Made by a program: the position numbers and the translations under genes
The notes under the pieces: generated by a model
Seen by the model: only the letters and a program-made list of their open reading frames with translations
Told to the model about the DNA's origin: nothing
Database searches by the model: none
Part shown: piece by piece, positions 42,378 through 64,000 of the stretch
Layout of the letters: every line of letters begins with the position of its first letter
Numbering within the stretch: position 1 is the stretch's first letter
From: Rhodopirellula sp. P2
GTDB taxonomy: Bacteria; Planctomycetota; Planctomycetia; Pirellulales; Pirellulaceae
NCBI RefSeq assembly: GCF_028768465.1
Contig: NZ_CP118225.1
Span: 3,639,001 to 3,703,000, forward strand
Length of the DNA stretch: 64,000 nt
Direction: 5' to 3'

Positions 42378-43718
42378 CTACGCAATTGAAGCGACCGGTA
42401 TAGGCTCCGAGGAACCGAATGCCAACCTCGTTGCTTCAGCAATTCGCTGGCGTCTCCCTTGCGGGCTGTTTTCTTGAATCAATGCTTCAAGGCGGTTTAG
42501 ATTGACCGGGCGAAGGCAGACTTGCCCTAGCGACGATCCTCGAACTGGGTCAGTAATGTCGATCCTTGCTTCTTTGGCTTGTAAATGTGCAGCCGGGTAA
42601 AGAATACTGCTGGTGGGATTGGATGGTTGGCTAATCGCGTACACGACCAATTGATAGAGCATTTCGCGAGGCAATGGCTTGTCCCACAGGTCACGGTATT
42701 TCGCATCCAACAACGCTCGCAATCGTCCGTTCTTCGTGATTGCATAATCTGGACGCGGCGTTGGCGATTGCTTTCCTTGCGGATTGAATCCTGGGTTATA
42801 CCGCATCATGTGTTTGAGGCCGTGCTCATCGACAACACGATGATCCGCTAAATTCTCCGCTAGAAAGCGAGACAGCAACGCTTGAAAGAAAGCGTTCATG
42901 TCAAATAGGAATCCCGGTAAGCGATTGGTGATCGCTTCGCCTTCAAGGGTGATGCCCTGCGATTCAACCAGCAGTCGAATAATCGACATCGAAGCTGTAT
43001 AACTTGTGTTGAGTCGATTTGACTGGCGAGCCACCTGATTCATCACCGCTGAGCTGAGGCGGATCGTGGAAATTGATTCCTCCATCAACGAAGCAAGCCG
43101 GCGAGCATCTCGACGTAACAACAGGTTGCTCGCAAGAGATCCGGCCAGAATTAGACCCGCGTGAAGCACTCGATTAAAAAGAGTGTCTTCAATCCGCGGG
43201 TAGTGACGACAAGGCAGTTCAGCGGCCACGAGCCCACCTTCGCGAGCTATCTGGCCAATGTTGATTTGGCCACGCGGTGAGACGAGTCGTTCGCCACGTC
43301 GAACGTAGGATCGCCTGAGTCCTCGCGAGAGCAATTCTTGTGCTTCGGTGTTCAACTGTGCCACCAACAGGTCTTCAAAACCACACGGCTCCGAAAGATG
43401 GCTCGCATCGCAAAGCAAATGAAGCTTGCGAAACCCGAAAGCGTAACGTAGTAGGTTCAGCAACGATGTGCCCGGCAGTTTCGGAAGCACCGTGATAGTC
43501 AGGTTTCCCAAACGTAGGCGACCTACATGAGAAAGAGCCTTGATCTGCAGTCCGTCGCGCAGATCGGCAAGCTGAAGCCGCCTTGACCGTGTCAGCATTT
43601 CTGCGTGTGCCACGGCAGCACTGCCAGCTTCCAAGAAATATCCACGCAGTGATTCGTGGGTTTGAGGGCTCGCTGTTTCCCACTCCGAAAGCACTATCGA
43701 ACACGGGCCATTCACCAT
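42378..43718 (-). CDS. mcrC: McrC-family subunit of a McrBC-type modified-DNA restriction system
   Basis: 446 aa. N-terminal beta-rich McrC domain (LGNLTITVLPKLPGTSLLNLL), a helical linker (RIEDTLFNRVLHAGLIL), and a C-terminal PD-(D/E)xK nuclease with RPDYAI and LLDAKYRD, the DxK pair. With McrB it cleaves DNA containing modified cytosine. The start overlaps the mcrB stop by one base (TGATG), so the two are coupled. Last gene of the minus-strand operon. Confidence 0.9.
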   Translation of the reverse strand: MVNGPCSIVLSEWETASPQTHESLRGYFLEAGSAAVAHAEMLTRSRRLQLADLRDGLQIKALSHVGRLRLGNLTITVLPKLPGTSLLNLLRYAFGFRKLHLLCDASHLSEPCGFEDLLVAQLNTEAQELLSRGLRRSYVRRGERLVSPRGQINIGQIAREGGLVAAELPCRHYPRIEDTLFNRVLHAGLILAGSLASNLLLRRDARRLASLMEESISTIRLSSAVMNQVARQSNRLNTSYTASMSIIRLLVESQGITLEGEAITNRLPGFLFDMNAFFQALLSRFLAENLADHRVVDEHGLKHMMRYNPGFNPQGKQSPTPRPDYAITKNGRLRALLDAKYRDLWDKPLPREMLYQLVVYAISQPSNPTSSILYPAAHLQAKEARIDITDPVRGSSLGQVCLRPVNLNRLEALIQENSPQGRRQRIAEATRLAFGSSEPIPVASIA

Positions 43719-46393
43719 CAGTTCTCACCTTCTGGCGGTCCCGGCAAATCATCCTCGTCAGCGTTTTCGAACGCATCGTCTTCATCACCCAGCGACTGAT
43801 CGGAGGTGAGTGCCGCGGTCGTGTTCTGAATGTCACTAAACGATGTCAACAGAACATCGACCAACTCATTTTCACGCCCTGCTTCCAGTAAGTCCTGTCG
43901 AATTTCCTGTTTTTCAGTGTCGACAAGGCCATCGCCAAGAATTTTTCCCAGTGTGGTATAGTCCTCGTAGCAGTACTCCTCGAGCAATGGAATGATGTCG
44001 TCACGAATCGCACGCCGCAAAACTGCAATTTCTTTGATTGGGCTTCCTGCTTGTAGCAAGTACGAGTGACCAATCTGAAGGTTTCGCGAGTCGCGGCCAA
44101 CATGTTGCCTTATGCGTTCGTTCAATGCCTCGAACCAAGCACGCAAAGGAATGCCGCTGACAGTTGAGTCCTTCAAAACTCTACCGTCCGGCATCAACTC
44201 GATAAATCCAAAGCGGCGGCGTAGTGCCGCATCCAACAACGAGATTGAACGATCCGCTGTGTTCATCGTGCCGATCAGCAAGACGTTCTTCGGGATGGTG
44301 AATACCTGCTGACTAACGGGGAGTGTGATTCTCTTCCCGCGTTTATCTCTCTCCAATGTCGTCAATAATTCTCCGAACACTCGTGGTATATCGCCGCGAT
44401 TAATCTCATCGACAATCAAGAAAAATTGCTTCGCCGGGGTTGCTGCGGCATCTTGGCACAGTTTTTTGAAGATGCCATCGCGTAGTTCAAACGAAACCTG
44501 ACCGTTCACCGTGGATGGTCGATAGCCTTCGAGAAAGTCCTCGTATCCGTACGCCGGATGGAAGCAACACATACGAACGCAACCCGACTGCTCACCTTCA
44601 CCCGAAATTGCGTGCTTCTCAAACTCGTTCAAGTTTGCATGTAGCTTTCCAAAGTGAGAAATAGCCGCCAAGTCAAACGCAGTCTTTTCAGCCCAGTAGG
44701 TCTTCCCCGTTCCAGGCGGTCCGTACAGGATGACTTGTGATTTGCGAGCTAGCACCGACTGGATCCGACCGCCGATGTCCTGCAGGCGAATCGGACGAGG
44801 CGGAGTTGGTGTGGTCGTTCCACCGCTGACAGTCGATTCAATTGAATCGTGAACCTTCTTTTCCGCTTCGACGATATTCTCATCGTGTCGGCGAATTTCC
44901 CGGACGATGGATCGAAGCCCTTCGGGCACCGGCATCGTCCATTCCTCGATACTCAGCCACTCAACGCTCCGCTGGTGAGGGAATCCGAATTCGGGTGCAT
45001 GCTCATACTCGCCTGTGACACGTCCGATTCCGAGCACGGTTGCACCATCTGACGCAAGTACCCAGTCACCTTCGTTAATACCAGCAATGAACTGCGTAAT
45101 TTGAGAGCAATCTTGACCAACCGAAATCGAGCTTTGATCTGGGTTGACTTCTTTCAGTGCCTCCTTAAGTTGCTTTCGCGATTCCTTCTTTGCTTCAACC
45201 CATGTGAGATCTCCAAGTTGGTTCCATCCGATCGCGATGACATTGCGTTCCTTCATCATTTCCCAGTGACTGACGCCATCATCACCGCCGCGGGTTCCGA
45301 CACGCCAATATTTATGGAGCCGACCCTGTACGGCATTCAAGGACGCAGTGAATTGATTCATTCGTACGCCGACTTCTGCGGCTGCCGAAACGAACCGTCC
45401 CGCGCAGATATATCGCCCGTCGCCTCCAGGTGGAAGCTGTTGCAGCTTTAGGATGTGAAAGTGTTGCCAGTCAGGGCTATGGAAGTCATCGAGCTTCTCT
45501 GGATAGAGCAAGCTGAAATACTTGTGTCCCCATGCCAGCTTGCTGACCTCGGGAGCCAGTTCGTCCATTTGGTCTTGCAGTTCAGCGTAGTCATCATCGG
45601 ATGCGTTGTCGGATAGTTGTTCGAGTAATTCTGCACCCTGAATCAGTTGGTCGCGATGTAGTCGAGCAGCCTCGATTGCCTGTTCAATCGAAACGTCGAT
45701 CGGTTTACCGTTGTCGCCCGCCATCTGCCAACGTCCCGTCTCTTTGCGACGAAAGATGCGAAACTTCAAGGCACTTCCGCCGGCGATGCTGCCAAATTGC
45801 TTGGTGTCAAACTCTTCATCGCTTTTGAATTCCAGCCAATAAACAAGGCTGTCTCGGTTTCCATGGTCGTGAAGAAACTCGAGCAACGGCTCTCCGTCGA
45901 GTCCGCGAAGGACCTGTGGAGAGTATCTCTCCGCAAACAAGGAATACGATTCGTCCAGCTTATCCGTCGTGTAAACACGCCCTTCTTCAAGAAGATGCTC
46001 GTAGGTCGCAGCAAGCTCATCGCGTTTCGCTTCGCTTAGCATCGTCGATCCCTCCGGCCGCGACACACGACGCACCTCACTGAGTCTGCGTCCATTGGGG
46101 TCTTTCCAGTCGTACCAGCCGTTCGACGGTGATCCCTTCACGATGACGCCAGCGCTGCTGGGTTTGGTGAAGCGGTAGTCCTTCATGAATCGGTAGAGGT
46201 CTCCGAACTCTTGGAGCACTCCTTGTTCGAGAAGTTCATCGCGGATCGTTTTCACATTCGGTTGGCATGACGAAGTGATTTCTTTCCGAGCCGTCGACCC
46301 TTCCAGAACCGTGAATCCGTCCTCGTTCATGACAGCAGTTGCGGCGGCTTCACCGATATGCAGGTAGAGTTTTTCTGCTTGTTCATTCGTCAT
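43718..46393 (-). CDS. mcrB: McrB-family AAA+ GTPase-like subunit with DUF4357 and EVE/YTH-like N-region
   Basis: 891 aa. Residues about 80-115 resemble DUF4357 (GSPSNGWYDWKDPNGRRLSE), common in restriction enzymes. Residues about 330-480 look like an EVE/PUA-like modified-base reader (GDWVLASDGATVLGIGRVTG). The motor domain follows: Walker A YGPPGTGKTYWAE at about 551-563, Walker B FLIVDEINRGDIPRVFGELL at about 655-672, and the McrB signature GTMNTADRSISLLD at about 706. A Glu/Asp-rich tail ends it. Canonical E. coli McrB is 459 aa; the extra N-terminal modules probably set specificity. 80 bases downstream of brxL, so probably in the same transcript. Confidence 0.9.
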   Translation of the reverse strand: MTNEQAEKLYLHIGEAAATAVMNEDGFTVLEGSTARKEITSSCQPNVKTIRDELLEQGVLQEFGDLYRFMKDYRFTKPSSAGVIVKGSPSNGWYDWKDPNGRRLSEVRRVSRPEGSTMLSEAKRDELAATYEHLLEEGRVYTTDKLDESYSLFAERYSPQVLRGLDGEPLLEFLHDHGNRDSLVYWLEFKSDEEFDTKQFGSIAGGSALKFRIFRRKETGRWQMAGDNGKPIDVSIEQAIEAARLHRDQLIQGAELLEQLSDNASDDDYAELQDQMDELAPEVSKLAWGHKYFSLLYPEKLDDFHSPDWQHFHILKLQQLPPGGDGRYICAGRFVSAAAEVGVRMNQFTASLNAVQGRLHKYWRVGTRGGDDGVSHWEMMKERNVIAIGWNQLGDLTWVEAKKESRKQLKEALKEVNPDQSSISVGQDCSQITQFIAGINEGDWVLASDGATVLGIGRVTGEYEHAPEFGFPHQRSVEWLSIEEWTMPVPEGLRSIVREIRRHDENIVEAEKKVHDSIESTVSGGTTTPTPPRPIRLQDIGGRIQSVLARKSQVILYGPPGTGKTYWAEKTAFDLAAISHFGKLHANLNEFEKHAISGEGEQSGCVRMCCFHPAYGYEDFLEGYRPSTVNGQVSFELRDGIFKKLCQDAAATPAKQFFLIVDEINRGDIPRVFGELLTTLERDKRGKRITLPVSQQVFTIPKNVLLIGTMNTADRSISLLDAALRRRFGFIELMPDGRVLKDSTVSGIPLRAWFEALNERIRQHVGRDSRNLQIGHSYLLQAGSPIKEIAVLRRAIRDDIIPLLEEYCYEDYTTLGKILGDGLVDTEKQEIRQDLLEAGRENELVDVLLTSFSDIQNTTAALTSDQSLGDEDDAFENADEDDLPGPPEGEN

Positions 46394-46473
46394 GTTCGAG
46401 TTCCTGTTTTGTTGCTGCCGACCAAATTCCAGTTGTCATCATGTGAATGGTCAAGGTTACGAAGTGTAAAAGA

Positions 46474-48537
46474 TCAGTCCAACAAACACTTGAAGAATGC
46501 ATCTTGAGCATCCTTGTAAAACTCGATGCTGATTTTGGTCCAGAGTTCATCTGGTAGATCGTTGAGTTGCCGGCGGGCGGAGACAGGCATTAGGAGCGTG
46601 GTGGCTTGTTTTTCGATGGCTACTTCGGCGATGGCGACCGGGTTCGGGATCATCTCAACTGAGCCACCCAGGTTCAGCGAACCGACGATAATCATTCCTC
46701 CCTTCGTGCTTCGCTCCAGTAGCGAGCTAGAAAGGGCGACGAGGGCGGGCAAGCCTAGGCCTACGCCGCTGTGATCGTTGTCCATCGCTCGCATTTGGAT
46801 GGAGAACTCGTGCGCACGTGGGTCGCGGTCACCGACCAGTTGTTTGCTCTGGGTGTAAAGGTTCTGTTCGCCGATCTTGACGCTTTCGCGGAATCCGGGC
46901 GGTGTCGGCGTATTGAGAATGCGAACATTGCTGCCGGGGCCGGATGTGACTTCGAGTCGGTACAGTCCGGGGCCAGACTCTTGCGATCCAGGGCTGATTG
47001 CCCAGACTTGGCCCGGTGGTAGCGGGTCGCCGTCGATAGCGACGTCGCTGTGAAGCTCTGGCGTTGCGACGAATTGTTCGACACCGTCGACGCCCATCGT
47101 GAAGCTAAAGTGTGTGTTGCGGAACTCGCTCTTGAGACACTTCTTCTGTTGTTCTTTCACGCGTCGGCGTGATTCCAGAGCCAAGCGGACCAGCAATTCA
47201 AGGTCTTCATCGGAGACGTCCATTTCAGGATCGGGGAATACAAGTTTCAACAAGCCGCTGATCGTTTTGTTAACCGCTTCGATATCGCGGCCGCTCAGGG
47301 CGCCACCAAAGAACACCCGATTCTGCAACGTTGAGACGCGGCTTAGCATTCGCAAGTTCGTCCAGCATTCGCTCAGGAAATCGCTGACAAGGCCAAAGTG
47401 GTTGGTGAGGTGCTCATTCGGATTCAGTTTCGGGAAATCCCAACCGGGAGCGAATGCATGAATACGGTCGTGGAAGGCTGTGTCGTCACGCATTTCTGGT
47501 GGTAGAGGGCTTAGCAAGTGGCCAATGCGTTGTTGCTGCTCGACATCGACATCGAAGTTGCCGACCATGACAATGCCACCCTCGGCTCGAATGCTTTCTT
47601 TGCCTCGGCTGAATTCGCCGGACGCCATATAGCCCTTCATGATGTTGACGCCGTCCTTTTGGTCGAAGGAGACGCCGGATACTTCGTCGAAGCAAACCAC
47701 GTCGTACTGACAAACCAAACCGCGTTGTCCGCTGGCGTTGTTGACGAACATCTTTGCGACGGTCGCCTTGCCGCCGGAGATCAAATGGGAGTACGGCGAA
47801 ATCTGCTGGAACAGGTGGCTCTTGCCGGTGCCGCGCGGTCCTAGTTCAACCAAGTTGTAATTGCGTTCGACAAAGGGCACCATTCTCAGCAAGACGACAT
47901 ACTTCGCCCGATCCGATAGCTCGGTCGGTTCCAAACCGATCGAACGAACCATAAAGTCGATCCATTGTCCAGTTGAATACTCGGCTCGTCCCCGCTTCAG
48001 TACATCCAGAATGTCTGACTTTGACATTTGAATCGGACGCAGCGACGCGATCCGGAATGGTCTACCGTTCTTCTCCTGGGCAACAACTGCGTCATACTCC
48101 AGCGTGATCTCGGCGTAGAAACCATCCGTCAGCATCCGCTCGTGATCGTCGACCAGCTTGTCATCAATCAGGGCATCTTTGATTGCCAGGCTAGGAATCT
48201 CGGCGTAGTAGCAATCCGACTTCGTGTCGAGCTTCGCCTTCACCACGTCGATCAGCTTCACTGATCCTTTGTCGCGAGCCTGTTTGATGAAGACCTCCTC
48301 TTGGCCGGTCTTCACCGTGCGGTTCTGCAATTGCTTTTCGACAATCTGCAGCCCCTCAGCGATCTCCTCCTCGTCGACCGTCGCGCAGTAGCGACCGAGC
48401 AAGAACTCGACCACGTAAGTCGGGACTGGATACTGACGAGCGTATTTGCGGACCAAGTCCTTACGAACCAAGTACCCGTCAAACACGGACGCGGACATTT
48501 GATCCAGTCCATCCATTTGCAATGCTGTTGCGTTCAT
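46474..48537 (-). CDS. brxL: BREX Lon-like AAA+ protein BrxL
   Basis: 687 aa. BrxL helical N-domain, then AAA+ with Walker A LGPRGTGKSHL (233-241) and Walker B VVCFDEVSG (280-288). The C-terminal Lon-like S16 fold has Ser590 in NDHSGVGLG and the typical MPVSARRQLNDLP end, but the catalytic Lys expected after GG (Lon GGLKEK) is not apparent, so proteolysis is doubtful. In BREX type I, BrxL is required for phage defence and not for methylation. 14 bases from pglZ, same operon. Confidence 0.94.
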   Translation of the reverse strand: MNATALQMDGLDQMSASVFDGYLVRKDLVRKYARQYPVPTYVVEFLLGRYCATVDEEEIAEGLQIVEKQLQNRTVKTGQEEVFIKQARDKGSVKLIDVVKAKLDTKSDCYYAEIPSLAIKDALIDDKLVDDHERMLTDGFYAEITLEYDAVVAQEKNGRPFRIASLRPIQMSKSDILDVLKRGRAEYSTGQWIDFMVRSIGLEPTELSDRAKYVVLLRMVPFVERNYNLVELGPRGTGKSHLFQQISPYSHLISGGKATVAKMFVNNASGQRGLVCQYDVVCFDEVSGVSFDQKDGVNIMKGYMASGEFSRGKESIRAEGGIVMVGNFDVDVEQQQRIGHLLSPLPPEMRDDTAFHDRIHAFAPGWDFPKLNPNEHLTNHFGLVSDFLSECWTNLRMLSRVSTLQNRVFFGGALSGRDIEAVNKTISGLLKLVFPDPEMDVSDEDLELLVRLALESRRRVKEQQKKCLKSEFRNTHFSFTMGVDGVEQFVATPELHSDVAIDGDPLPPGQVWAISPGSQESGPGLYRLEVTSGPGSNVRILNTPTPPGFRESVKIGEQNLYTQSKQLVGDRDPRAHEFSIQMRAMDNDHSGVGLGLPALVALSSSLLERSTKGGMIIVGSLNLGGSVEMIPNPVAIAEVAIEKQATTLLMPVSARRQLNDLPDELWTKISIEFYKDAQDAFFKCLLD

Positions 48538-48551
48538 ACATTCATCCCTAT

Positions 48552-51029
48552 TTATTCGCCACCGATGGTGGTGTTTTGTTTTGCAATCGTTTGGCCGGCA
48601 TCGTTACACACGGTGACCGCGACGACCGATTCCAACAGGTCGTCATCCTCGACAAACAGCGTGACTGTCTCGTTCCCGTCAAGCGGTTTGCCGCCATCCG
48701 CGACGGAAGTAGCCGGATCGTTTGGCTTGTTTCTCAAGTCAACACGCAAACCAGCCGATGCCGGCGAGACCGAGATACGACAACGCAGTCCCTTCCAATC
48801 CACCTTCGTGATGGAAACGTCCTGACGCACAGGCTGGTTCTGCAGGGATACCGACATGTCTGGAATCAGACATTCCTGCAAACTGATCCCGCCGTGCGCG
48901 TACGCGTGTCCCGCCGAGAAGCATCTCACGCCGGGGCCGGTCGCGAACTCGGCCGATTGATTCCAATGCCACGTCGCCTTGGGAACGTTTGGTTTCGATT
49001 CACCTTTGATCGTCGCACAGCGAGCCCATTTCGCTTCCGTCAAGTAATGGGGCAGGTCTTCTTTCGGCAAACCACCTGGCATCAGCAACCATCCGTGGTC
49101 CGTGATGACGCGAACTTCTCGCCAACCGGCATCGAGCAGTTCCGCGATTCGTTCCGCAATCAATTCAACTTGCTCTGCCACCACCGATGCCAGCTTGGCC
49201 TGCATGCTGTGACCACGTTTGTCGATCTCTCCAAACTCGCACCAACCGCGTGCTTTCGCTGCGGCCGGATCGCCTACTTCACCAGCGCCGATGATCTGGT
49301 AATCGTCCGCCTTCAACAACGAGTGCATACGAGCGAACGTCAGCGACTTTTCTGGATTGTCGGCCAACGAGGGTGCAAAGCTATCGGGCAGGCCCACGCC
49401 GCGTACCTTGGCCGTCACTGGCGAGACAGCAGGCTTGGCCGTCGCCGTCACCGATGGCAACGCAGACCACCGTCGCCGTGACGCGACCATCAATCCACGT
49501 TCAGCTAGAGCCAGCGACAACCGCTGCGCCAGGTCGTATCGCAGACCATCGGCAAACAGCAAGCAGCAACCAACGTCCGCCGAAATGCTTTCATACGACG
49601 AAACCGTTCCACGTGAGCCGTAGGCACTAGCCCCAGGTCTTCCTCCATAAACCCCTGTCGCCGACCGGCCCGCGGCAAGCGCGGTCGGTTCGGGAAGACG
49701 CTCCGATACGCGATCAGTGAGACCGGGCGGGTCACGCCAAACTTCCTGCAATCGAGTTGCCGCCTGATCCAACCACGGCAAGTACAGCGCTCGCACCGCC
49801 GCGTGTACAGCCACCGCGTCGGCTGCCGTACGGACAGTCGCCATCGCTGCGAGTGCCGCATCATCGACCAAGTAACCGCCATCCGCGTACAGCTTCGCCA
49901 AATCCTCAGGCGAATCGCCTCCGAGTGCGGCTTGCGTGCGTTCGGCCAGGTGCCCAAGGTGTTCCAAAGCAAGTGCAAGTGGGGCTTGGTCCAACCGAGC
50001 CCAAACCCATGACCTCCGAAAACCATGAGCCTGTTCCAGCTTCGCGATCGCCTCACGGGCATGTGCGGCATCGACGCCGTCCAACGCAGCGAGGGCAGTG
50101 CGAAGCGACACTTCCTCCGTTTCATTCTCGTCCGGCCAAGTTTCTTTCTCGTAAGCGATGCGGTTGGTCGGCTTGGCTCGGCGCAGCAAACTTGGAATGC
50201 CAGCATAGGCCTTGGGTGATTCGCAGTAGCGTCCCCATAGCCCTTCCCAAACATTCGTTTCCTGCATACCAAGTTTTTCGGCGGCCACCAGCTCGCCGTC
50301 GGAATCGGGATCGAATCCATAATCCTCGCGACAGCGATTGCAGAAGGCATGCCACGTGCCACCAACAGAATCAGTGACGTTTTCGACACCGCCCATTTCC
50401 TCACGCACCAGTGTTGGATCACTCATCCAACGCAGCAGGTCGCGTGGGTGGTCACCGATCATCAGCTTGTCAAAATCTTCCGCCTCCAGTCGCCGGCCAG
50501 TCAAACGCGATACCGGTGTATCTGCCAACACTGACAAGGAAGCCATCATGGAAAGCTTGGTGTGGCTGTCGCCAGCGACATCCAGCCCCAGTCCCGGAGC
50601 GTCCTTGCCGACCAACATTGCCTCGACCGACCAATCGCGACCGTTCTTTTGTGTCCACACCGCACCGCGATACAGGAGTTCAACCAGCGGCTGCAGCTGC
50701 AGCGGACATTCGGTGCCGGCACGCAACGTTTGCCGGCTGATCAAAGGCAGATAGACGATCGGCGTCAATCCTTCTGGAATCTCAATCTCTGGCAATTGAC
50801 GGGCGATCGCACATTTCAACCAGATCGCCGGACCAGTTCGTTTATCGCAGTCGTATTCACCATGAACCAGCAACTGCGGTAAACGGGAACGCAGGGTTTC
50901 GACGAGCGGCAACCATTCGCCTTTGGCGTCGGTCCACAAGATCGCAACCGGTGGCACTTCGCCGGCGGAATGCTTTGACGCATCCGCGAGTGATTCGCGC
51001 AACGATTCGAGCATCGTGTCGTTGGTCAT
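48552..51029 (-). CDS. pglZ: BREX alkaline-phosphatase-like protein PglZ
   Basis: 825 aa. N-terminal 480 residues are helical, PglZ-type; the alkaline phosphatase superfamily core begins at LLFADGLRYD (Asp494) and includes VRVITDHGWLL (Asp644, His645), the expected metal ligands. PglZ is a core, obligatory BREX component of uncertain chemistry, needed both for methylation and defence. The layout (about 825 aa, long helical N-region) fits the group called PglZ type B in BREX-1; I am not sure of the subtype. The start overlaps the stop of the upstream AlbA_2 gene by four bases (ATGA). Confidence 0.93.
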   Translation of the reverse strand: MTNDTMLESLRESLADASKHSAGEVPPVAILWTDAKGEWLPLVETLRSRLPQLLVHGEYDCDKRTGPAIWLKCAIARQLPEIEIPEGLTPIVYLPLISRQTLRAGTECPLQLQPLVELLYRGAVWTQKNGRDWSVEAMLVGKDAPGLGLDVAGDSHTKLSMMASLSVLADTPVSRLTGRRLEAEDFDKLMIGDHPRDLLRWMSDPTLVREEMGGVENVTDSVGGTWHAFCNRCREDYGFDPDSDGELVAAEKLGMQETNVWEGLWGRYCESPKAYAGIPSLLRRAKPTNRIAYEKETWPDENETEEVSLRTALAALDGVDAAHAREAIAKLEQAHGFRRSWVWARLDQAPLALALEHLGHLAERTQAALGGDSPEDLAKLYADGGYLVDDAALAAMATVRTAADAVAVHAAVRALYLPWLDQAATRLQEVWRDPPGLTDRVSERLPEPTALAAGRSATGVYGGRPGASAYGSRGTVSSYESISADVGCCLLFADGLRYDLAQRLSLALAERGLMVASRRRWSALPSVTATAKPAVSPVTAKVRGVGLPDSFAPSLADNPEKSLTFARMHSLLKADDYQIIGAGEVGDPAAAKARGWCEFGEIDKRGHSMQAKLASVVAEQVELIAERIAELLDAGWREVRVITDHGWLLMPGGLPKEDLPHYLTEAKWARCATIKGESKPNVPKATWHWNQSAEFATGPGVRCFSAGHAYAHGGISLQECLIPDMSVSLQNQPVRQDVSITKVDWKGLRCRISVSPASAGLRVDLRNKPNDPATSVADGGKPLDGNETVTLFVEDDDLLESVVAVTVCNDAGQTIAKQNTTIGGE

Positions 51030-52321: not shown

Positions 52322-52339
52322 TATGTTCTCTCGACTGGT

Positions 52340-55147: not shown

Positions 55148-55238
55148 TGATATTCCTATTTAGATGAACCGACCGGGCGAACTGCAGGGTTAGGTCTTGA
55201 TGTTTTGGCGAAACGGGATCGGGATTAGCGACAACAGT

Positions 55239-58200
55239 TCATTCTTCTCGTGCTTTTCGTTTAAATGCATTCGTGTAATGACAGCCATTCCATCGAACGC
55301 CGTCGAACTTGCCGCCTCCGGTGAAGTCAGTCGTCTTCTCGTCCCAACTCCAGAACCAGGGGTATTCTTCGATGGGACGTTCGGGTTCCTTGCCCCGGTC
55401 TTTGGTCCACTTGATCTTTGGCTTGATGCGGAACACGCCAGCGTCTTTCGGGACGCCAGGAAGGTCCACTGCCATGAACGGCCGGATGTTGATGCGGACG
55501 CCATCGTTGATGTCCGGTTCAAAGCCGATTGGTTGCTCGTGGATTGGCTTCCAGCGAACAAACAAATCGTAGGGCGGTTCGCCCGCCAAAATCGCTTCAA
55601 GACGTTTGAACAGATCTTCGGCAGCCAGCAAGCGAGCCTCCGCAGCCGGCAACTCACGTTTCACTTCGTCTTTTTGACGTGTGATCCAGTCACCCAGGTA
55701 GCTGTACGTCAAACTCTCCAGCACCTTGCGGCCACCTGGACCAGCCAGCTTGTGGTAATTCACCAGTGCATGAAAACCGTCTTGTTTACGACCGTCGTAG
55801 ATGTGCCAAACGAAAGGTCGTTGATCGAACGTGTCGCAGTGTTCCTTGAAGAACTTGTTGCGCAGCCAATCATCCAGATTCTCGTTCGTCGTGACATCGC
55901 ACGCGGAAAGCAACCGAGCCAAACGATCGGCAGCGGCATCTTCGCCGCGAACCGACGGAATGCAGACAATGCCGTCATCGTCGATGTATGAATCGAGCTC
56001 GCTGCAACGATCAACCAAATCGCGAGCACGCTCACTGAGTCGCATCTCGGCGTCGAGTTCCGCCGGCCAGCGATAACCTAGAAGTCGAGCAGCGGCAACT
56101 TGCAGCGGCGATGTAGATTCGGATGGCCAGCCGTGAAAGAGCCATTGCGTTGGATCGTTAGACTCGGGTTCAGGTATCCCTGCAGGAAAACGATCAATCG
56201 CTTCTGCGGCCCATCGTTGTCGATCGAACGGCACCTGAGTGAAGTTTGCGACCTCAACACTTACCTTCTGGTTAATTCTTCTCAACTCTGTATTGAATTC
56301 ATTGGACTCAACGAAACACCAGAGTGGTGCAATGTCTTGCTCATTATCAGGGACAACTAGGCAGCACGATGTGTCCCACGGTCCCCCATATCGAAGAGTG
56401 CCGCGTATCTTGTTCATCATGCCAAAAATAAGCCCAGGCTTGTCCCATTGGTCAAGATTGCGGAGATACGCAGTTGGGCTTGAAGCAAGTCCGCCGTCTC
56501 CGTTTTCCCAGTAAAGCACCTTGGTGCAACCCGTGCCCCACGGCTCCATCACATAGGGCGATGACTGCATCAATATCCAGTCTGAATCGACACAAACTTC
56601 CCAAAAGTCACGCCGGAAACGTTGATCATCACCTGTACCAAGTCCCTTGTATGAGGTGCTTGTGTTTAACAGCAAGTCCTCAAGCGAACGTGTCTCCAGC
56701 ACCAACGCATATCCTGGATTATCCAGCTGGCTTGACTGCTGCACGAGCAACAAGTCAGCTCTGTCGGAACCCTGTAGCATTGCAGCCTTTGCGTCTTGGT
56801 CCTTGTCGCAGCCAACATCTATTCCAGCAATAATTCCTGAATCTTTCGGCGATTCCCGTGTGATCGCGAAAAGTGCCGTGGTAGCGGCCCACCAGTTCAT
56901 GTCACGAAAAGCGTTGCTTCCGAGCCTAGCAACGAAATTCCACCTTGCGGCAGAAAATAGCTTGTGCCTCATTTTCTTATATGTCGACAACGACAACCAG
57001 TTTTGAGGACTGACGATGGCCACCGTCCCAGATTCATGGCAGAATTCAAGGCAACGCAGTGTCAACGCCGTCGACAGATCAGCTTTTGCTGTCTTGTAGA
57101 ATCCATCAGTGTGCAACAGCAAAGGATCATCCTGCTTAACGCTCCCTAGGTAGGGGACGTTCGTAACAATCAAGCTGTATTGATTCGTTAGCAGTTTCGT
57201 TGCAGTCGCCAAGCCTTTCGCAGCGAGTCCCAACTCATGTGATTCCGGTTCGGTGTTTGGATCAGTGGCAACGGAACGTTCAAGCAACCCGTACAGATAT
57301 TCGGTTTGAACATCGCTGAGCAGAAATGACTCCAGCGAACGTCGCGGGTTAATCAAACTGCCCAATGTCGACGCCTGACTGAACATGTCGTAAAGCTGCC
57401 CCCAAAAAAAGCCAAGGCCTTCTTGAGCTTTAGCGGGAAGCGTCGGTCCATCTGCTTCGTTAGACTCAGCCGTTGGCTCGTTGTTGAGCAACTTCATCCA
57501 CTGTTCGCGAGTGGCCCCGATCGACTGGCCAACGTGAGCGATCGTCATGGACGGCAATTCGCGATAACGGTCCATCTTCCAAGCGGACATCGCGACGTTA
57601 AACACCGCGATCTGGACGCAGCGTTTGTCCAACTCCAAACCAAATAGGTTGTCTTCCAATACGGAGTCAATCGCTGCTGACAGACTGAGTGATTCTTCCC
57701 GCATTCGTAGCCGAACCAGCAGCTCAAACGCAGCGACCAAAAAATGCCCGCTACCGCAACACGGATCAAGAACTTTTAACTCTGCCGCAGTCCGTGGCCA
57801 ACCTTCAAACGTGCCGCCCATCGGCCGCCATGGTCCGTCGCCATTCTCTGATTCGCCGTCAGTTTCTTGCGACTCACGAACAAACCGCAGGTACTCGAAC
57901 TCGTATCCACCTGCCTCGGTCAACGCAACGGCTCGACGCAACTCATCTTCATCCTTAGCTGTCTTGGCTAGCGCTGGATTCTCCGCCAATACCTTGCCCG
58001 CATGCCAAGCACCCAGAGTATTGTGCAGCAAGAACATCACCATGTAGTCTTCGGTGAAGAACTGAGTCACGGCCGGCAACGTCGCGGCGTTGATCTTCTC
58101 TTCCGAATCATTCGCCCGCTTGTTGGCGTCGTTCTGCCAGAACTGATAGACCCAGCCCAGACTGTCGTCGGCGAGAAACACCGCCCGCACGAGACCCGTC

Positions 58201-58727
58201 TTGTCGCTCGCTGACGCCGGCTCTTCGACCAGTTCGATCAGGCTGCTCAACACTTCTGGCGGCAACTTGACTTCCAACACCGGGTTGTCGGCAGGAAAGA
58301 TGGCCGGCAACGCAGCCTGAGCAAAACGCCCCGCCAATTCCCACTGGTGCGTACCCTCTTCGTGCGCTAGCTCCTCAACTTCCTCCAGCGAGACCAACGC
58401 CTTCAATTGCGGATGCCACAAACAATCGTTCTCGGCCAAGAAACGAGCAAACAGAATTCGGTGCCAATGCTGATACGCACATTCCTCAACCAACCGATCA
58501 ATCGACTGCGCCCCCGAAGCATCCCGCCGATCCCCCAAGAACCGACCATGAGCACGCAACCGATTTCGCAGTTGAACCTGCTCGTCGGTTTTGATGTGAT
58601 CGCCCCGCTTGGCCTCATGCACCGTCAACGATTCCAGCGCCTGGCGAGCACCCTGCTCAGCCACCTTACGCGCATCAACGACCGCCTTTTCGAGTTTCCG
58701 TCTCAGTTCGCTTGATAGTGTTGTCAT
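55239..58727 (-). CDS. pglX: BREX adenine-specific DNA methyltransferase PglX
   Basis: 1162 aa from ATG 58727; a TTG at 58739 would overlap the parA stop by four bases and is an alternative. Motif I DPCCGSGHF at 321-329 and motif IV NVPY at 523-526 (the usual NPPY with Val) define an N6-adenine methyltransferase. Long helical N-region of about 300 residues and a C-terminal target-recognition region. PglX methylates host DNA at the BREX site. Its motif IV variant has been seen in other PglX-like proteins to my knowledge, so I do not call it inactive. Confidence 0.93.
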   Translation of the reverse strand: MTTLSSELRRKLEKAVVDARKVAEQGARQALESLTVHEAKRGDHIKTDEQVQLRNRLRAHGRFLGDRRDASGAQSIDRLVEECAYQHWHRILFARFLAENDCLWHPQLKALVSLEEVEELAHEEGTHQWELAGRFAQAALPAIFPADNPVLEVKLPPEVLSSLIELVEEPASASDKTGLVRAVFLADDSLGWVYQFWQNDANKRANDSEEKINAATLPAVTQFFTEDYMVMFLLHNTLGAWHAGKVLAENPALAKTAKDEDELRRAVALTEAGGYEFEYLRFVRESQETDGESENGDGPWRPMGGTFEGWPRTAAELKVLDPCCGSGHFLVAAFELLVRLRMREESLSLSAAIDSVLEDNLFGLELDKRCVQIAVFNVAMSAWKMDRYRELPSMTIAHVGQSIGATREQWMKLLNNEPTAESNEADGPTLPAKAQEGLGFFWGQLYDMFSQASTLGSLINPRRSLESFLLSDVQTEYLYGLLERSVATDPNTEPESHELGLAAKGLATATKLLTNQYSLIVTNVPYLGSVKQDDPLLLHTDGFYKTAKADLSTALTLRCLEFCHESGTVAIVSPQNWLSLSTYKKMRHKLFSAARWNFVARLGSNAFRDMNWWAATTALFAITRESPKDSGIIAGIDVGCDKDQDAKAAMLQGSDRADLLLVQQSSQLDNPGYALVLETRSLEDLLLNTSTSYKGLGTGDDQRFRRDFWEVCVDSDWILMQSSPYVMEPWGTGCTKVLYWENGDGGLASSPTAYLRNLDQWDKPGLIFGMMNKIRGTLRYGGPWDTSCCLVVPDNEQDIAPLWCFVESNEFNTELRRINQKVSVEVANFTQVPFDRQRWAAEAIDRFPAGIPEPESNDPTQWLFHGWPSESTSPLQVAAARLLGYRWPAELDAEMRLSERARDLVDRCSELDSYIDDDGIVCIPSVRGEDAAADRLARLLSACDVTTNENLDDWLRNKFFKEHCDTFDQRPFVWHIYDGRKQDGFHALVNYHKLAGPGGRKVLESLTYSYLGDWITRQKDEVKRELPAAEARLLAAEDLFKRLEAILAGEPPYDLFVRWKPIHEQPIGFEPDINDGVRINIRPFMAVDLPGVPKDAGVFRIKPKIKWTKDRGKEPERPIEEYPWFWSWDEKTTDFTGGGKFDGVRWNGCHYTNAFKRKAREE

Positions 58728-58735
58728 GATGCCAC

Positions 58736-59719
58736 TCAAGTACTCAAACCAATACGGGACGCGATTTTTTTACTTAGTTTTTCAAAGTCTTTGTAGGCTT
58801 CTTGGACGTAGCCTCCGTGTGCTCCGATTGCTCCGTCCGCAGGTTTTAGATCAAACACTGGCTTCTTGGCGTCATCGGCGAGTTGGATCAAGCTATGAAA
58901 GTTCCGTATAATGGCAAGGCACGCATCGTCCTCGCCTAACGGCGTCCTGTGACTCAATTCCTGGTTAAGTATGTTGCGATGATACAGTTCCGGGATTTGT
59001 TGCATGGACGCTTGTAGTGCGGCTGTTGTTGTGCGACCGCGCTGATGGATGTGGCCGACGATGTATCCGATCGGGAGTGTATCTTGGATCGGAACGCCAT
59101 ACTTAGCGCAGCACGGCGTTTCATTGATTTCATGCCATTCACTTTGCCATCTTCCGAGCGTTGCTCCCAATAACTGCAGCGTTCGTAGTGTGAGCGCATT
59201 CGGTGTAAGAGGAACGGCCAAGTGAGTGCAGTTCACCAACACTGCTCGGTTCATTGCAGAGAACTGCGGTGCTAAGTCAACGAGGACGACATCAGCTGCG
59301 TGAGCTTCGGCTGCCATTTCAAGAACGAAGCGAAACCCAAGAAGTTGCTTCAGAGCTTCTTCATTGTCGTGCTGAGCAAGACTCCAGCCCGCCGCGTAAC
59401 GTTCCTCAAAGTCGGACTGACGAAAGTCCGTCGATAGGAGTGCAACATCATCCCTGATCGGCCAAAGGTGTGGGGGAAGGATATCAGAACCGTCATTGTG
59501 ATAGGGAGCCAGCGCATCGAAAACAGTCCGCTCGTATTTCCATCCTTGGTCCAACTGCGACTCAGTCAACAACATCGCAGAGAGGTTGTATTGCGGGTCA
59601 AGATCTGCCACAACAACGCGGTATCCCAATTCGCCGAGCATGATTGCGACATGAGCGGTAAGCGTGGTTTTGCCAACGCCCCCCTTGCAATTGAACAGAC
59701 TCACTATTGGAACGCTCAT
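58736..59719 (-). CDS. ParA/MinD-type ATPase inside the BREX operon
   Basis: 327 aa. Deviant Walker A CKGGVGKTT at 11-19 with the signature Lys12, a switch VVADLDPQYNLS at 36-47, and the VLVDLAPQFSAMNRA motif at about 141-155. No ParB or centromere partner is visible. Start overlaps the upstream AlbA_2 stop by four bases (ATGA) and pglX follows within 8 bases, so it is made in step with the methyltransferase. Full-length, not a remnant. ParA proteins dimerise on DNA with ATP; its role here is unknown. Confidence 0.88.
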   Translation of the reverse strand: MSVPIVSLFNCKGGVGKTTLTAHVAIMLGELGYRVVVADLDPQYNLSAMLLTESQLDQGWKYERTVFDALAPYHNDGSDILPPHLWPIRDDVALLSTDFRQSDFEERYAAGWSLAQHDNEEALKQLLGFRFVLEMAAEAHAADVVLVDLAPQFSAMNRAVLVNCTHLAVPLTPNALTLRTLQLLGATLGRWQSEWHEINETPCCAKYGVPIQDTLPIGYIVGHIHQRGRTTTAALQASMQQIPELYHRNILNQELSHRTPLGEDDACLAIIRNFHSLIQLADDAKKPVFDLKPADGAIGAHGGYVQEAYKDFEKLSKKIASRIGLST

Positions 59720-60909
59720 GTTCGTTTCCTCAGTGTCACGGAGACAAAGGTCGATTGTGGGGTCAACTCTAATGGGGGACTGCCGTTGTCGGTCAGCGCA
59801 TCTCGTGCGGACTGAATTCCAGCTCCAAACTTTTGAACAAACCCAAGGTTTCGCATTACTTCTGCAATAGTCGGGTTGCGATAGTCAGCTTCTCCCGGAC
59901 GTCCAAAGTTTTCAATGGTTACCGCGCCATAAGGGCCACCGGGACTTAGAATCTCAACGCGATCACTGAACCACATTAGTCGCGTTGGCGCGTTGGTCGT
60001 TTCATAGCTACGGTGCATGATTGCGTTTCGCAGCAGTTGTTGGATGGCGACAATTGGATAATCGGGGACACGAATTTCCGTAGGAGCGGACTTAAAGTCG
60101 GTTTCGATTTCAATGTTAGCTTCTACTGTTTCTTCCGACTTCCGAATCAACTCTGATATCGGGCCATGGATCGCTCGCTGACTCGCCACGGGATCAGAGA
60201 GTTTAGTTCCGTTAATCTTCACAAACTGTAAGTATGCACCTGGCAAGAAATCAGCTGGCGACTTGCCTAGTGTGAGCAAACCAGCAACCGTAGGCGTTAC
60301 CTCATCGGCGTCAAGGAACCGCAGCGATCTAAGTTGCTGCTCGATTGTTCTTTTGTTTTCTGCGATTACTTGTGGCGCAATTGCAGAAGGTAGATACGTA
60401 TTTCGAAACAGATCTAGGTCAAGGTCGTCTAAGGTCGCCGAAGAGATCGGCTGCATATCCCACGGTAGGTTACCAGCCCTTCGTCGTTCGGTAAGCCTTT
60501 GCTCTTCTTCACGCGTAGCCGTATCGCGACGAGGGCCAACTCGAATCCAGCTCCGTCCCTTAAAACGAACAGGGGGAAGCCGCGATGGTTCGACAATCAC
60601 AATTGCTACTTCACAACCATTGATCGTTTTCTTCTGCACGATCAATGACGGGAGCGGAAGAATGTTGCCGGTAGAACGCAGTTGAGAGAGATTAAGTAGT
60701 AGTTTGTCATCAATCGGGAGATTCATGCAGCTGCCATCATCTTTTACGCCAATGAACAGAACTCCAGGTTTTTTGTGCCCCGGCATGTCATTAGCGAAGG
60801 CACAAATCGCCTGTTGAATCTTCTTCGGATCGGCAGCCGATTGCTTCCGTTCAACGCGATCAGACTCGATGTCCTCGTAAAGCTCCTTCAATTCTTGGTC
60901 GGTGAGCAT
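59716..60909 (-). CDS. AlbA_2 (Schlafen-like) and HATPase_c_4 protein, copy 1
   Basis: 397 aa. AlbA_2 fold at about 10-130 (VERKQSAADPKKIQQAICAFA, GVLFIGVKDDGS), then a bundle, then IQQLLRNAIMHRSYE matching the HATPase_c_4 helix motif, and a winged-helix end (FGAGIQSARDAL). Same domain order as the protein at 51026-52321 but clearly divergent. 54 bases downstream of brxC and four-base overlap with parA. Could be a regulator or an effector using ATP; no direct evidence. Confidence 0.85.
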   Translation of the reverse strand: MLTDQELKELYEDIESDRVERKQSAADPKKIQQAICAFANDMPGHKKPGVLFIGVKDDGSCMNLPIDDKLLLNLSQLRSTGNILPLPSLIVQKKTINGCEVAIVIVEPSRLPPVRFKGRSWIRVGPRRDTATREEEQRLTERRRAGNLPWDMQPISSATLDDLDLDLFRNTYLPSAIAPQVIAENKRTIEQQLRSLRFLDADEVTPTVAGLLTLGKSPADFLPGAYLQFVKINGTKLSDPVASQRAIHGPISELIRKSEETVEANIEIETDFKSAPTEIRVPDYPIVAIQQLLRNAIMHRSYETTNAPTRLMWFSDRVEILSPGGPYGAVTIENFGRPGEADYRNPTIAEVMRNLGFVQKFGAGIQSARDALTDNGSPPLELTPQSTFVSVTLRKRT

Positions 60910-60963
60910 GATTTGTTCTCGATTAAATGATTGGATTTGATTCGCAAGCTAGAGCTTACGCCT

Positions 60964-63900
60964 CTAGCTAATGACGACAGGGCCGTCTTTCAGTTTTTGA
61001 TTGATGGCTGCCTCCTGCTCTGCCAACCAAAACTTCACATCATCAGGCGTCTTCAAGGTTCCACTCGACAAGTGCATACGTTGAAGCTTGGGTTCATGCA
61101 GCTTGGCGGCTCTCGCGTCAACACTGGCAAATCGACTGGTCAGTGCGTCAGTCTTGTCTTTCCACGATGAAAGAGGAGTCGCATCAAGCGTTCGCAGCAG
61201 TTCGTCGTCGCTGCCAACGGAGATCGCTGGAACTCCGTTCAATCCTTCTGCCTGCATCAACTCAGACTGTTTTGCTGCATCCGTCTTCTGCCATGACTCG
61301 CTGGCCTTCAATGACTCAAACTCGGAGTTGTAGGTGCTTTCGTATTGATCGTGAGCCGACGTCACTGCCGACCGCAAGGCCGCCGCGGCTTTCTTGACCA
61401 ACGGCGTTACGTGATCGGTCTTCTCCAGCAGCAAACGACTGTCGCGTATTCCATCTGCCGCAGATCGAATGTCGGCGAACTCATCCATCCCGTCACCGTG
61501 CTTCATCAGCCGACCGAGGCGTTGCCACTGGGGCATTCTCTTCTCGGATAGCTCGGCAAGCGCTGTCCAATCCTCGGCTTGCTTGCTGAGTTCATCACGA
61601 ACGGCCAGCAGCTTTGCCAGTCGTTCGTTGCCTGCGTGATTTCGCAGGTCAGTCAGATGATCCGTATCGGGGCGAACCGGCAGTGGTGCGTCGCCGCCAG
61701 CGCGGCTGGCCAAGTCAAACATCGCCTTGAGGAACTCGCTTGACTTATCTTCCAAATCATCGCTTGGACGTGTCGGAACCCCGGCCGTCGGGAACAAGCC
61801 GCGAAGGGCAATCTTGTCACTGGCGGATAGCGTGATCGTTTCCTGCCGGAGTTCTGCCTTCTTTATCTTGGTCTGGTCCAACTTGCCCGGCGGGACGCTG
61901 TCACCGCCAGCACGAACGGTGATATCGCCTGAGTTGTGCAACGCCATGATTGCGCCGTCGATCGCGTCTTGCGACCAGCCGTAGGGTGCGTTTCCAAAAA
62001 TCTTCTGCAGCTGACGACCTTCGCATCCGGCCCCGATCTCACGCAGTAAGGCTTTGCATACGGGGTGGCCCTTTGTTTCGCCCGTCCAACTAACGGCGCC
62101 CAGTGGTGCATCGTCGTTGTTCTTGGCACGACTGATGACGACAGGCCAATTCTTGTGGTCACCGTCACCAAACTTGGGAAACATCCGGTCGAGGGCATCC
62201 TTGGCGGCGTCTTTGACCTTTTCCTCGATCGTAAGTGACATCACCTCGGCACCGCCGCCCTTGAATACTTTGGCGGCGTCGACAATTTCACCAAGGATTT
62301 CATCGCGAGTACGCTGGGCATCAGTTTGCCGACTTTCCATCGCGCTCCGTGCTTCGTCTCCCTCTGGCGTGCTCGGGACACCTTTGATTTTGATGGTTCC
62401 AGTCGAAGCCTCATAACGAACGATCTGCTTCTCTAAGTCCTTCGAGTTTCCGCGCGGCAGGAAGACAAAGACAATCGGACTGTCGGTTCCGGCGGCACGA
62501 GCTGAATCGACCACGTTCTTTTCACTGGCCGAGTACTCATCTCGAATCCATACGGGTACCGCATCACCGTCGACGACCGGGGCATCGTCGCCGAAGTGGA
62601 TCGCCAACTTGCGTTTCTCTTTTCGCTCACCTTGGATCAGCGAAATACCCTTGATGGCGTCATGACTGGCTGCACGGATCAGCGCGTCACGCTTGGAGGT
62701 TAGCTCGCTAGAGTTTGCATTGAGCTGCTGCTCTCGCTTGCGGAACTCAGCGTCCCAGTCGGAATACTCCTTGGTTTGAAGGTTGTATTCACTGTGGTCC
62801 TTCAGCAAAATTCCGTCGTTGACGAGTTCTTCAAGCAAATCCGGAATCTCTTTGCGAAGCCGCGCCCCGTCGTCTTGGAGATCGCTGACCATCAAGTCGG
62901 CCAGCATCTCCTCCGACGCGCGAACGCCGATATCAAATCCGGCCTCACGTGGGATCTTGCGAATCAAGAAGGTCAGACCGCAAAGCCGGCGTTTCAGTTT
63001 TCCCTTTTCGGTGCCGTCGTCGAGTGATCGAATTGTTTCATCGAGTTCACGAAGTAGCACACCTTGGTGAACCAGGCTCGGCTGAAGCTGGTCGAACATC
63101 AGATCGGCCGGCACCACCGTGCCTAGTCCGCTGGATGCGTAGTCGTGTAGCGCATCGTGAATGATTCGCAACTGAGACCGAAGCATTCCGCTCGTGCCTG
63201 TTGGATCGACGGCGCGGAACACGTGCTCCCAAAACCGACGTCGTACCGGCAGCAAGGGATAGTCTTCAACCATGATTTCGCGGTCGCTGCCTTTGCTTCC
63301 GATTCGCGTCCCAGAGAGCTGACGTTCGATTTCACCGGAGTGTACGTCGAGGCACTTGCGTATCGCGTCAACGTGTTCGGGCTTTTTCTGCAACAAGACA
63401 CGACGCGTCACCGTTTCGACATCGGTGTCCGAAAGTTCGATCGGGATCGTGAAGCGATCTTGAAGCCATTTGAAGTGTGGTGCCTGGGACGCGAGTGCGT
63501 TCTGTCCCGCACCAACAACGATGATCCGAGATTCCAACTGCTTGCTGAGCGCTTCGGCAACATCGACTACATCTCGAGTCCGATCCTTCGAGTCGCCAAT
63601 GTGGATTTGCACTTCGTCCAGCACGATGATCGTGCATGGCAACTTCCCATCGACCGAAAGCACTTCACGTGTCAGCTGTAACAATTCCGACGAGGAAATG
63701 TCCGCTGGTTTCTTGAACTGCCCTCGGATCGTTTCCCGTGCCGACTTGCGGTCACCATATCCGGCATCGACCTCCACCAAGGCGTCGTGCAATACGGGAC
63801 TGACGGTCAGGTCGTTCAGCTCGCGAAAGAAGTCTTTTCCCTTGGCTTCAACGGCAGCTTTGACTTGATCGTAGAAACCGTTGTTTTTGAGGTAGAGGCA

Positions 63901-64000
63901 GAACTTTGCCGGAGCATATTGTTCGGGTAGTCCCTTTGATCGCAGGATCATGCCCAAGACGGTCAAACGAACGCTGCTGGTGTCACCCGATGGCAGCGTT
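60964..64000 (-). CDS. brxC: BREX P-loop protein BrxC/PglY (5' end off-window)
   Basis: About 1012 residues seen; the frame is still open at the right edge, so the N-terminus with Walker A is missing. The visible part contains Walker B TIIVLDEVQIHIG, a sensor-like VVGAGQNAL, and helical BrxC regions rich in Glu/Lys, with the central FVFLPRGNSKDLEKQIV segment. BREX BrxC is a large AAA+ ATPase (about 1200 aa). First visible gene of the operon; brxA and brxB, which precede brxC in type I BREX, would lie beyond the window. A TTG at 63966 is an internal codon, not the start. Confidence 0.93.
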   Translation of the reverse strand, partial: TLPSGDTSSVRLTVLGMILRSKGLPEQYAPAKFCLYLKNNGFYDQVKAAVEAKGKDFFRELNDLTVSPVLHDALVEVDAGYGDRKSARETIRGQFKKPADISSSELLQLTREVLSVDGKLPCTIIVLDEVQIHIGDSKDRTRDVVDVAEALSKQLESRIIVVGAGQNALASQAPHFKWLQDRFTIPIELSDTDVETVTRRVLLQKKPEHVDAIRKCLDVHSGEIERQLSGTRIGSKGSDREIMVEDYPLLPVRRRFWEHVFRAVDPTGTSGMLRSQLRIIHDALHDYASSGLGTVVPADLMFDQLQPSLVHQGVLLRELDETIRSLDDGTEKGKLKRRLCGLTFLIRKIPREAGFDIGVRASEEMLADLMVSDLQDDGARLRKEIPDLLEELVNDGILLKDHSEYNLQTKEYSDWDAEFRKREQQLNANSSELTSKRDALIRAASHDAIKGISLIQGERKEKRKLAIHFGDDAPVVDGDAVPVWIRDEYSASEKNVVDSARAAGTDSPIVFVFLPRGNSKDLEKQIVRYEASTGTIKIKGVPSTPEGDEARSAMESRQTDAQRTRDEILGEIVDAAKVFKGGGAEVMSLTIEEKVKDAAKDALDRMFPKFGDGDHKNWPVVISRAKNNDDAPLGAVSWTGETKGHPVCKALLREIGAGCEGRQLQKIFGNAPYGWSQDAIDGAIMALHNSGDITVRAGGDSVPPGKLDQTKIKKAELRQETITLSASDKIALRGLFPTAGVPTRPSDDLEDKSSEFLKAMFDLASRAGGDAPLPVRPDTDHLTDLRNHAGNERLAKLLAVRDELSKQAEDWTALAELSEKRMPQWQRLGRLMKHGDGMDEFADIRSAADGIRDSRLLLEKTDHVTPLVKKAAAALRSAVTSAHDQYESTYNSEFESLKASESWQKTDAAKQSELMQAEGLNGVPAISVGSDDELLRTLDATPLSSWKDKTDALTSRFASVDARAAKLHEPKLQRMHLSSGTLKTPDDVKFWLAEQEAAINQKLKDGPVVIS

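Follow-up and report, generated by a model that had tools for sequence, protein, structure and literature searches.

Nuclease genes are known to ride in bacteriophage exclusion (BREX) loci. In at least 1017 taxa, one study links BREX and BR cores to Schlafen RNases whose fusion partners are a minimal histidine kinase and a winged helix-turn-helix, and its main text proposes that endoRNases, Schlafens included, serve BREX and BR systems as back-up suicidal effectors, many of which are located within the operon (Rakesh and Krishnan, NAR 2026; PMC12839542). In the EcoprrI type I restriction-modification operon, the tRNA-cutting suicide nuclease PrrC is described as being silenced by EcoprrI and released when a phage inhibits EcoprrI (PMC2610378). 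Here we describe a BREX operon of Rhodopirellula sp. P2 in which two predicted Schlafen nuclease genes, each paired with an ATPase gene, flank pglX, the methyltransferase gene. The operon runs past the end of the window, by which we mean the whole 64,000-nucleotide stretch analysed (bases 3639001-3703000 of one contig with a length of 7.29 Mb).

The explanation that we consider probable is that of a complete type 1 BREX carrying three loads: two Schlafen cassettes gated by ATPases, which occupy slots flanking pglX and would act as second-line suicide effectors, and McrBC. In this model, BREX would mark self DNA and stop unmarked phage. Each cassette would consist of a Schlafen-type nuclease with a GHKL ATP-binding domain and a separate ATPase, either ParA or the ABC-type TrlF, and these partner ATPases would hold the nucleases off. 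Were a phage to block or outrun BREX, the Schlafen nucleases would be released, cleave tRNA or rRNA and bring the cell to a halt, while McrBC would handle phages with modified DNA. The layout of the genes, their tight junctions, the portability of the two pairs, the positions of the slots, the folds and the conserved acidic residues come from the analysis below. We infer the cleavage of RNA, the gating by ATPases and a coupling to BREX status, and propose a second-line role on the precedent of PrrC in EcoprrI.

A preliminary description of the locus had listed ten genes from brxC to mcrC, and all ten are present in that order and with those identities on the minus strand, from 42378 to past 64000 (Table 1). 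The operon comprises 12 genes, brxA-brxB-brxC-(AlbA_2-parA)-pglX-(trlF-AlbA_2)-pglZ-brxL-mcrB-mcrC. Its core, earlier called type I-like, is a type 1 core with brxA, brxB, brxC, pglX, pglZ and brxL in order, and it is complete because brxB and brxA match PADLOC models just beyond the window. PglZ scores above the cut-off of the NCBIfam model 'BREX-1 PglZ type B' (PglZ_1_B; 827 bits against 400), and the Pfam PglZ domain is under its cut-off (21 against 25). PglX is below the NCBIfam BREX-1 cut-off and matches the PADLOC PglX model end to end (1-1121 of 1125); judged by these scores it is a divergent subfamily, whose motif IV reads NVPY or NVPF in seven of nine relatives. Window-type PglZ occurs in 12 of 392 sampled genomes of the phylum, the window's genome counted, and BrxC and HmaB (the latter from the BREX-related HMA operons, see below) in 12/207 and 24/207 phylum genomes. 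By its profile matches the core is thus that of an ordinary type 1 BREX, and the extra genes, six rather than the five previously counted (AlbA_2, parA, trlF, AlbA_2, mcrB and mcrC), form three loads and no new BREX type.

As had been proposed, tight junctions tie the extra genes into the operon. In transcription order the gaps are +54 bases at brxC/AlbA_2, -4 at AlbA_2/parA, +91 at pglX/trlF, +18 at trlF/AlbA_2 and -4 at AlbA_2/pglZ, followed in the 3' part of the operon by +14 at pglZ/brxL, +80 at brxL/mcrB and -1 at mcrB/mcrC. The parA/pglX junction is a 4-base overlap if pglX uses a TTG start, and an 8-base gap if it uses an ATG four codons on. A scan of 44500-64000 for the sigma-70 consensus only, with the mcrB/mcrC junction outside it, found no promoter-like match in any intergenic gap, and each of the five promoter-like sites that it gave, against 9.1 +- 3.0 in shuffles, is intragenic. 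The operon is probably one transcription unit.

The first load is a portable pair. We collected 100 ParA loci, 20 from the phylum (of 23 places outside the window, with G308, G179 and G244 left out) and, from genome_contigs, the top 80 among 570 confirmed relatives, and read their context by tblastn. An AlbA_2 of the same subfamily lies directly upstream of ParA in 95 of them (78/80 from the best 80 of 570 in genome_contigs and 17/20 from the phylum), or in 93 of 98 distinct loci once the duplicates L069/L158 and L071/L125 are removed; the loci lacking the pair are L079, L080, L082, L113 and L162. Where both genes were called, they overlap by exactly four bases in 66 of 81 pairs. Record titles name as hosts cyanobacteria, proteobacteria, acidobacteria, Bacteroidetes, Planctomycetes, Chloroflexi, actinobacteria and one archaeon, with many metagenome bins. 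The AlbA_2 and ParA distance matrices correlate (r = 0.63, with 0/2000 permutations as high, host kinship being uncorrected). In a class sample around the pair-bearing genome G392, the AlbA_2 protein of the window's first load (AlbA2a) was found in 12 of 360 genomes, G392 counted, with an internal TGA in two matches. AlbA2a matches at E 1e-20 were present in 1 of 72,556 plasmid records, and in genome_contigs the record title of one locus, L130, is that of a Cupriavidus plasmid.

BREX or HMA core genes surround or adjoin eleven of the 98 distinct ParA loci; the queries for these genes were proteins from the window and from a few relatives, a search that other BREX types could escape. The genes are those of BREX at L064, L073 and probably L068, and those of HMA or its DUF499 variant at L066, L069, L083, L091, L098, L105, L115 and L123; for L068, L083 and L098 the assignment is based on fragments or contig ends. 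L091 and L123 are DUF499-type operons ordered ATPase, a gene of 332-338 aa, methyltransferase, AlbA_2-ParA and SNF2 helicase. The class sample around G392 adds one nest, L212, where the pair lies between HMA remnants. Three further candidates (L218, L219 and L116) had weak or no defence matches and were left out of the nested count, and the big genes beside the pair in L089, L110, L126, L157, L117 and L141 were rejected as defence cores, being an outer-membrane barrel, DUF4175, UvrA, gyrase A, an amidase and GidA. We estimate that chance nesting in BREX or HMA would be far rarer than 11/98, because BrxC and HmaB reach only the genome counts given above and each represents one operon among megabases of sequence. 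Mapped on a tree of 80 pairs, nine of them carrying it, the nested label requires seven changes, so captures or losses happened repeatedly.

We next consider the proteins of this pair. The AlphaFold2 (AF2) model of AlbA2a (pLDDT 89.2) matches 3lmm across its length in Foldseek searches and, by domain, human SLFN11 (1.8e-4), human SLFN12 (6.2e-4) and the CA domain of VanS; the model thus predicts two domains, Schlafen and then GHKL. Both AlbA_2 proteins of the operon are above the Pfam PF04326 cut-off and both have a histidine-kinase-type ATPase domain. Among 79 rows with a letter at those positions, E15 and E20 of AlbA2a are present in all 79 and D57 in 70. The spacing of E15 and E20 is that of the SLFN13 catalytic pair E205/E210, alanine mutants of which are described as inactive on tRNA (PMC5862951). 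The model of ParA (pLDDT 88.9, pTM 0.90) matches 3pg5, Soj and ParA, and its deviant Walker A motif is intact, with K12 and K17 retained. The best structural matches of the two proteins, 3lmm (DIP2311) for AlbA2a and 3pg5 (DIP2308) for ParA, come from the same Corynebacterium, and their numbering suggests that they are gene neighbours. If so, both halves of a related pair already have solved structures.

The second load, TrlF followed by AlbA_2 (AlbA2b), is likewise a portable pair. The AlbA2b subfamily occurs in 10 of 392 phylum genomes, the window counted, and TrlF is directly upstream of it in five of the nine other loci fetched; no TrlF was found at the AlbA2b loci L175, L180, L181 and L182. 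L176 holds the pair within an HMA operon, in the order hmaA-hmaB-trlF-AlbA_2-hmaC, and the pair is also found without BREX. TrlF exceeds the cut-off of NF045780 (596 against 350 bits) and failed that of the sister model Ppl_antiphage (554 against 1000); residues 801-879, in its ATPase part, weakly match AriA of PARIS (E 1.5e-4). Genome G306 has, between brxC and pglZ, a 257-aa open reading frame (ORF; L030 14161-14934) that matches residues 23-94 of PglX and then 269-425 of AlbA2b, its C-terminal half. This ORF lies directly before pglZ, so AlbA2b may once have preceded pglZ there too. It is possibly a deletion scar of the window's order, with the methyltransferase removed from the BREX operon; G306 is an 80% complete draft, and an assembly fault is also a possible cause of the fusion. 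The third load is mcrB then mcrC after brxL. The Pfam McrBC domain of the McrC-like protein is well above its cut-off; the cut-offs of the full-length equivalog models PRK11331 and PRK09736 are not reached.

We surveyed junctions in the 12 genomes with window-type PglZ, the window included, counting as an insertion anything longer than 300 bases. The brxC|pglX junction is filled in 4/9 evaluable cases (3/8 without the window) and pglX|pglZ in 7/10 (6/9 without the window), the smallest insertion at the latter being 325 bases with a 115-aa ORF in G114; pglZ|brxL has insertions in 0/12. Neither pglX-flanking slot is filled in G100, G327 or G029. Elsewhere these slots hold other payloads, namely GmrSD (G075), Fic (G131), a DEAD helicase (G033) and an AlbA_2-like ORF (G096). 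G382 has a YhcG-type PD-(D/E)XK nuclease gene in both slots (L042 6027-7154 and 11112-12224), a parallel to the two AlbA_2 cassettes of the window. A published case agrees with this slot pattern: the brxU gene, active against phage, is described as lying between brxC and pglX (PMC8565348).

HMA operons were surveyed at the 12 loci where HmaB scored highest, out of 28 places with a match across 24/207 genomes. Among these best 12 of 28, hmaA|hmaB is filled in 9/11 evaluable junctions and hmaB|hmaC in 3/10, split genes in L187 and L196 inflating two of the gaps. In both BREX and HMA the filled junctions adjoin the methyltransferase gene, HMA having no other internal junction for comparison. One HMA operon (L195 11632-17611) carries an AlbA_2 of another subfamily (542 aa) paired with a 1452-aa protein whose match to the Sacsin domain is weak and under the cut-off, and the two may form a third Schlafen cassette; the HMA locus L069 carries an AlbA_2 (546 aa) similar to that of L195.

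Table 1. Genes of the BREX operon and their coordinates, numbered from the first base of the window.
Gene	Position	Strand	Evidence
brxC, P-loop ATPase	60964..64000, extends to window-coordinate 64413; 1149 aa total	-	NF033441 767 bits (cut-off 400); PADLOC BrxC 1183.9 bits, in-window part
AlbA2a (AlbA_2 protein, load 1), Schlafen-type + GHKL (HATPase_c_4) domain	59716..60909	-	Pfam SLFN_AlbA_2 2.7e-15, HATPase_c_4 1e-17; AF2 model; Foldseek
ParA of load 1	58736..59719	-	Pfam AAA_31, CbiA; AF2 model; Foldseek
pglX, adenine methyltransferase, motif NVPY	55239..58739	-	PADLOC PglX 1345 bits; NF033452 296 bits (below cut-off 500)
TrlF of load 2, metallohydrolase-like N part + ABC-type ATPase	52340..55147	-	NF045780 596 bits (cut-off 350); NF038032 over residues 8-171
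AlbA2b (second AlbA_2 protein, load 2)	51026..52321	-	Pfam SLFN_AlbA_2 1.8e-18, HATPase_c_4 2.5e-15
pglZ, BREX-1 type B	48552..51029	-	NF033450 827 bits (cut-off 400)
brxL	46474..48537	-	TIGR02688 453.5 bits (cut-off 329.3); TIGR02653 614, slightly below cut-off 628; PADLOC 953 bits
mcrB-like GTPase, extra N-terminal domains (DUF4357, others)	43718..46393	-	AAA_5, DUF4357; PRK11331 146 bits, residues 547-812, below full-length cut-off
mcrC-like nuclease subunit	42378..43718	-	Pfam McrBC PF10117 98 bits (cut-off 23.9)
brxB, 186 aa	64467-65027, beyond window	-	PADLOC BrxB 244 bits; Pfam BrxB above cut-off
brxA, 271 aa	65008-65823, beyond window	-	PADLOC BrxA 285 bits; without Pfam match

Upstream of brxA and divergent from it are two genes (L002 3991-5741, window-coordinates 65990-67740). 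The first looks by eye like a response regulator and has a weak PADLOC PDC-M43A match, and the second has a HATPase_c (histidine-kinase-type ATPase) domain. This gene pair might control the operon.

Several observations weigh against the cassettes being second-line effectors of BREX. At 87 of the 98 distinct ParA loci there is no BREX or HMA gene in the stretch examined, and the neighbours of the pair in the scanned sample are ordinary genes, such as uvrA, gyrA and gidA; BREX is therefore dispensable for the cassette, and its trigger may be unrelated to it. An intact pair of either kind is present in 0/11 other genomes with window-type PglZ, within the stretches examined, and in none of the 12 HMA loci picked by HmaB score. 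The matches of AlbA2a to human Schlafens cover one domain, with a TM-score of about 0.19 by query length. The window ParA (58736-59719) is the most diverged of 80, its residual being 0.177 where the standard deviation over 80 pairs is 0.029. Of 87 columns with conservation of at least 90% it retains 59, fewer than any other of the 80 (28 lost). The window AlbA2a, in contrast to its ParA, keeps 76 of 78 conserved columns, and the two other BREX-nested ParAs are absent from the printed outlier lists. The window ParA may have adapted, changed its partner or role, or begun to decay.

The main rival to our explanation, which we judge less probable but serious, is that the loads are independent passengers: defence genes in their own right that, as in a defence island, share the BREX promoter and are functionally unlinked to BREX. 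Both pairs do occur without BREX or HMA, and BrxU, the closest tested case, is described as acting within BREX on its own set of phages (PMC8565348). The G+C content of the load genes (AlbA2a 0.499, AlbA2b 0.512, parA 0.515, trlF 0.524) is lower than that of pglX (0.539), brxL (0.550) and pglZ (0.589), which would fit late arrivals. However, chance insertion would not be expected to confine loads to both sides of the methyltransferase gene, and the 4-base overlaps suggest coupled translation. Partition or regulation, with ParA positioning BREX complexes on the nucleoid or segregating an element and AlbA_2 as an accessory regulator, is improbable. The ParA fold with its deviant Walker A motif would suit such a role, as would the database names that label AlbA_2-type proteins as helicase-related and not as nucleases (HATPase_c_4, phrog_12156), but ParA scores far under the curated partition families (58 against 180 for NF041546, 61 against 348 for TIGR03453), no ParB is present among the ten operon proteins scanned (a check confined to the window operon, with the neighbours of other pairs outside it), and the AlbA_2 model matches Schlafen structures and keeps the two invariant glutamates. 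The preliminary description had suggested a BREX subtype with new components, in which AlbA_2, ParA and TrlF would be obligatory. No BREX type found in print has this gene order, in line with its view that the arrangement falls outside the known types, and the tight junctions and the PglX-AlbA2b ORF before pglZ in G306 speak for such a subtype. Even so, we give this idea the smallest probability of all: AlbA2a-ParA is missing from the stretches examined in the 11 other genomes with window-type PglZ, three of these genomes have neither slot filled, and a BREX subtype is not supported where most ParA pairs, in the stretches examined, and some TrlF-AlbA_2 pairs lie without BREX and the corresponding positions in relatives hold other payloads.

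If the loads are second-line effectors of a type 1 BREX, the operon would act as a scaffold offering defined docking slots, and these would show where to search for new defence genes. What is new here is that two of these loads are conserved pairs, each bringing its own ATPase (ParA in one case), and that in the BREX and HMA loci examined the insertions stay next to the methyltransferase gene. The ParA family is known from DNA segregation. A more specific proposal, which is possible if rather doubtful, is that AlbA_2-ParA is a previously unreported two-gene guard, in which a ParA-family ATPase would have become both sensor and switch of a Schlafen suicide nuclease, and that the BREX and HMA slots beside the methyltransferase load such guards, to be fired when the carrier complex is disabled. 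ParA would then gain a role beyond segregation and positioning. Whether an embedded nuclease fires once its carrier system has failed, as happens with PrrC, thereby becomes a question that experiment can address.

BREX-linked Schlafen genes are already published, and their pairing with ParA is unreported as far as the literature found. The type 1 BREX with auxiliary effectors of PMC12839542 resembles the window's operon in its core genes and its BREX-linked Schlafens; the main text of that paper does not contain TrlF, PHP, McrB or 'ParA' as a whole word, and its main-text portions describe no methyltransferase-tied slots and no pairing with ParA or TrlF. No published Schlafen-ParA pair was recognised in literature listings, which do not cover preprints, and no PADLOC, Pfam or NCBIfam family joins AlbA_2 with ParA. 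PARIS (AriA-AriB) is, like the second load, a pair of an ABC-type ATPase and a nuclease, and the ATPase part of TrlF weakly matches AriA, but TrlF adds a metallohydrolase-like N part and its adjoining gene is a Schlafen where PARIS has TOPRIM. The pEFER BREX, as described in PMC8565348, has the non-core type IV enzyme gene brxU, which adds protection, in the slot used here by AlbA_2-ParA; it differs in having a single DNA-cutting enzyme in one slot, whereas the window has a two-gene Schlafen cassette and two slots. EcoprrI places a suicide nuclease gene inside a methylation-based defence operon, as the window does its predicted Schlafen nuclease genes, though PrrC belongs to another protein family and its silencing by the carrier is known (PMC2610378), while a BREX counterpart is proposed here by analogy. 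The core of HMA, or Type-1 BR, differs from that of the window in its SNF2 helicase, DUF1156 methyltransferase and DUF499 ATPase, with pglZ placed outside the core in the main text of PMC12839542, yet HMA operons carry the same two cassettes at equivalent spots beside the methyltransferase gene (L066, L105, L115 and L176).

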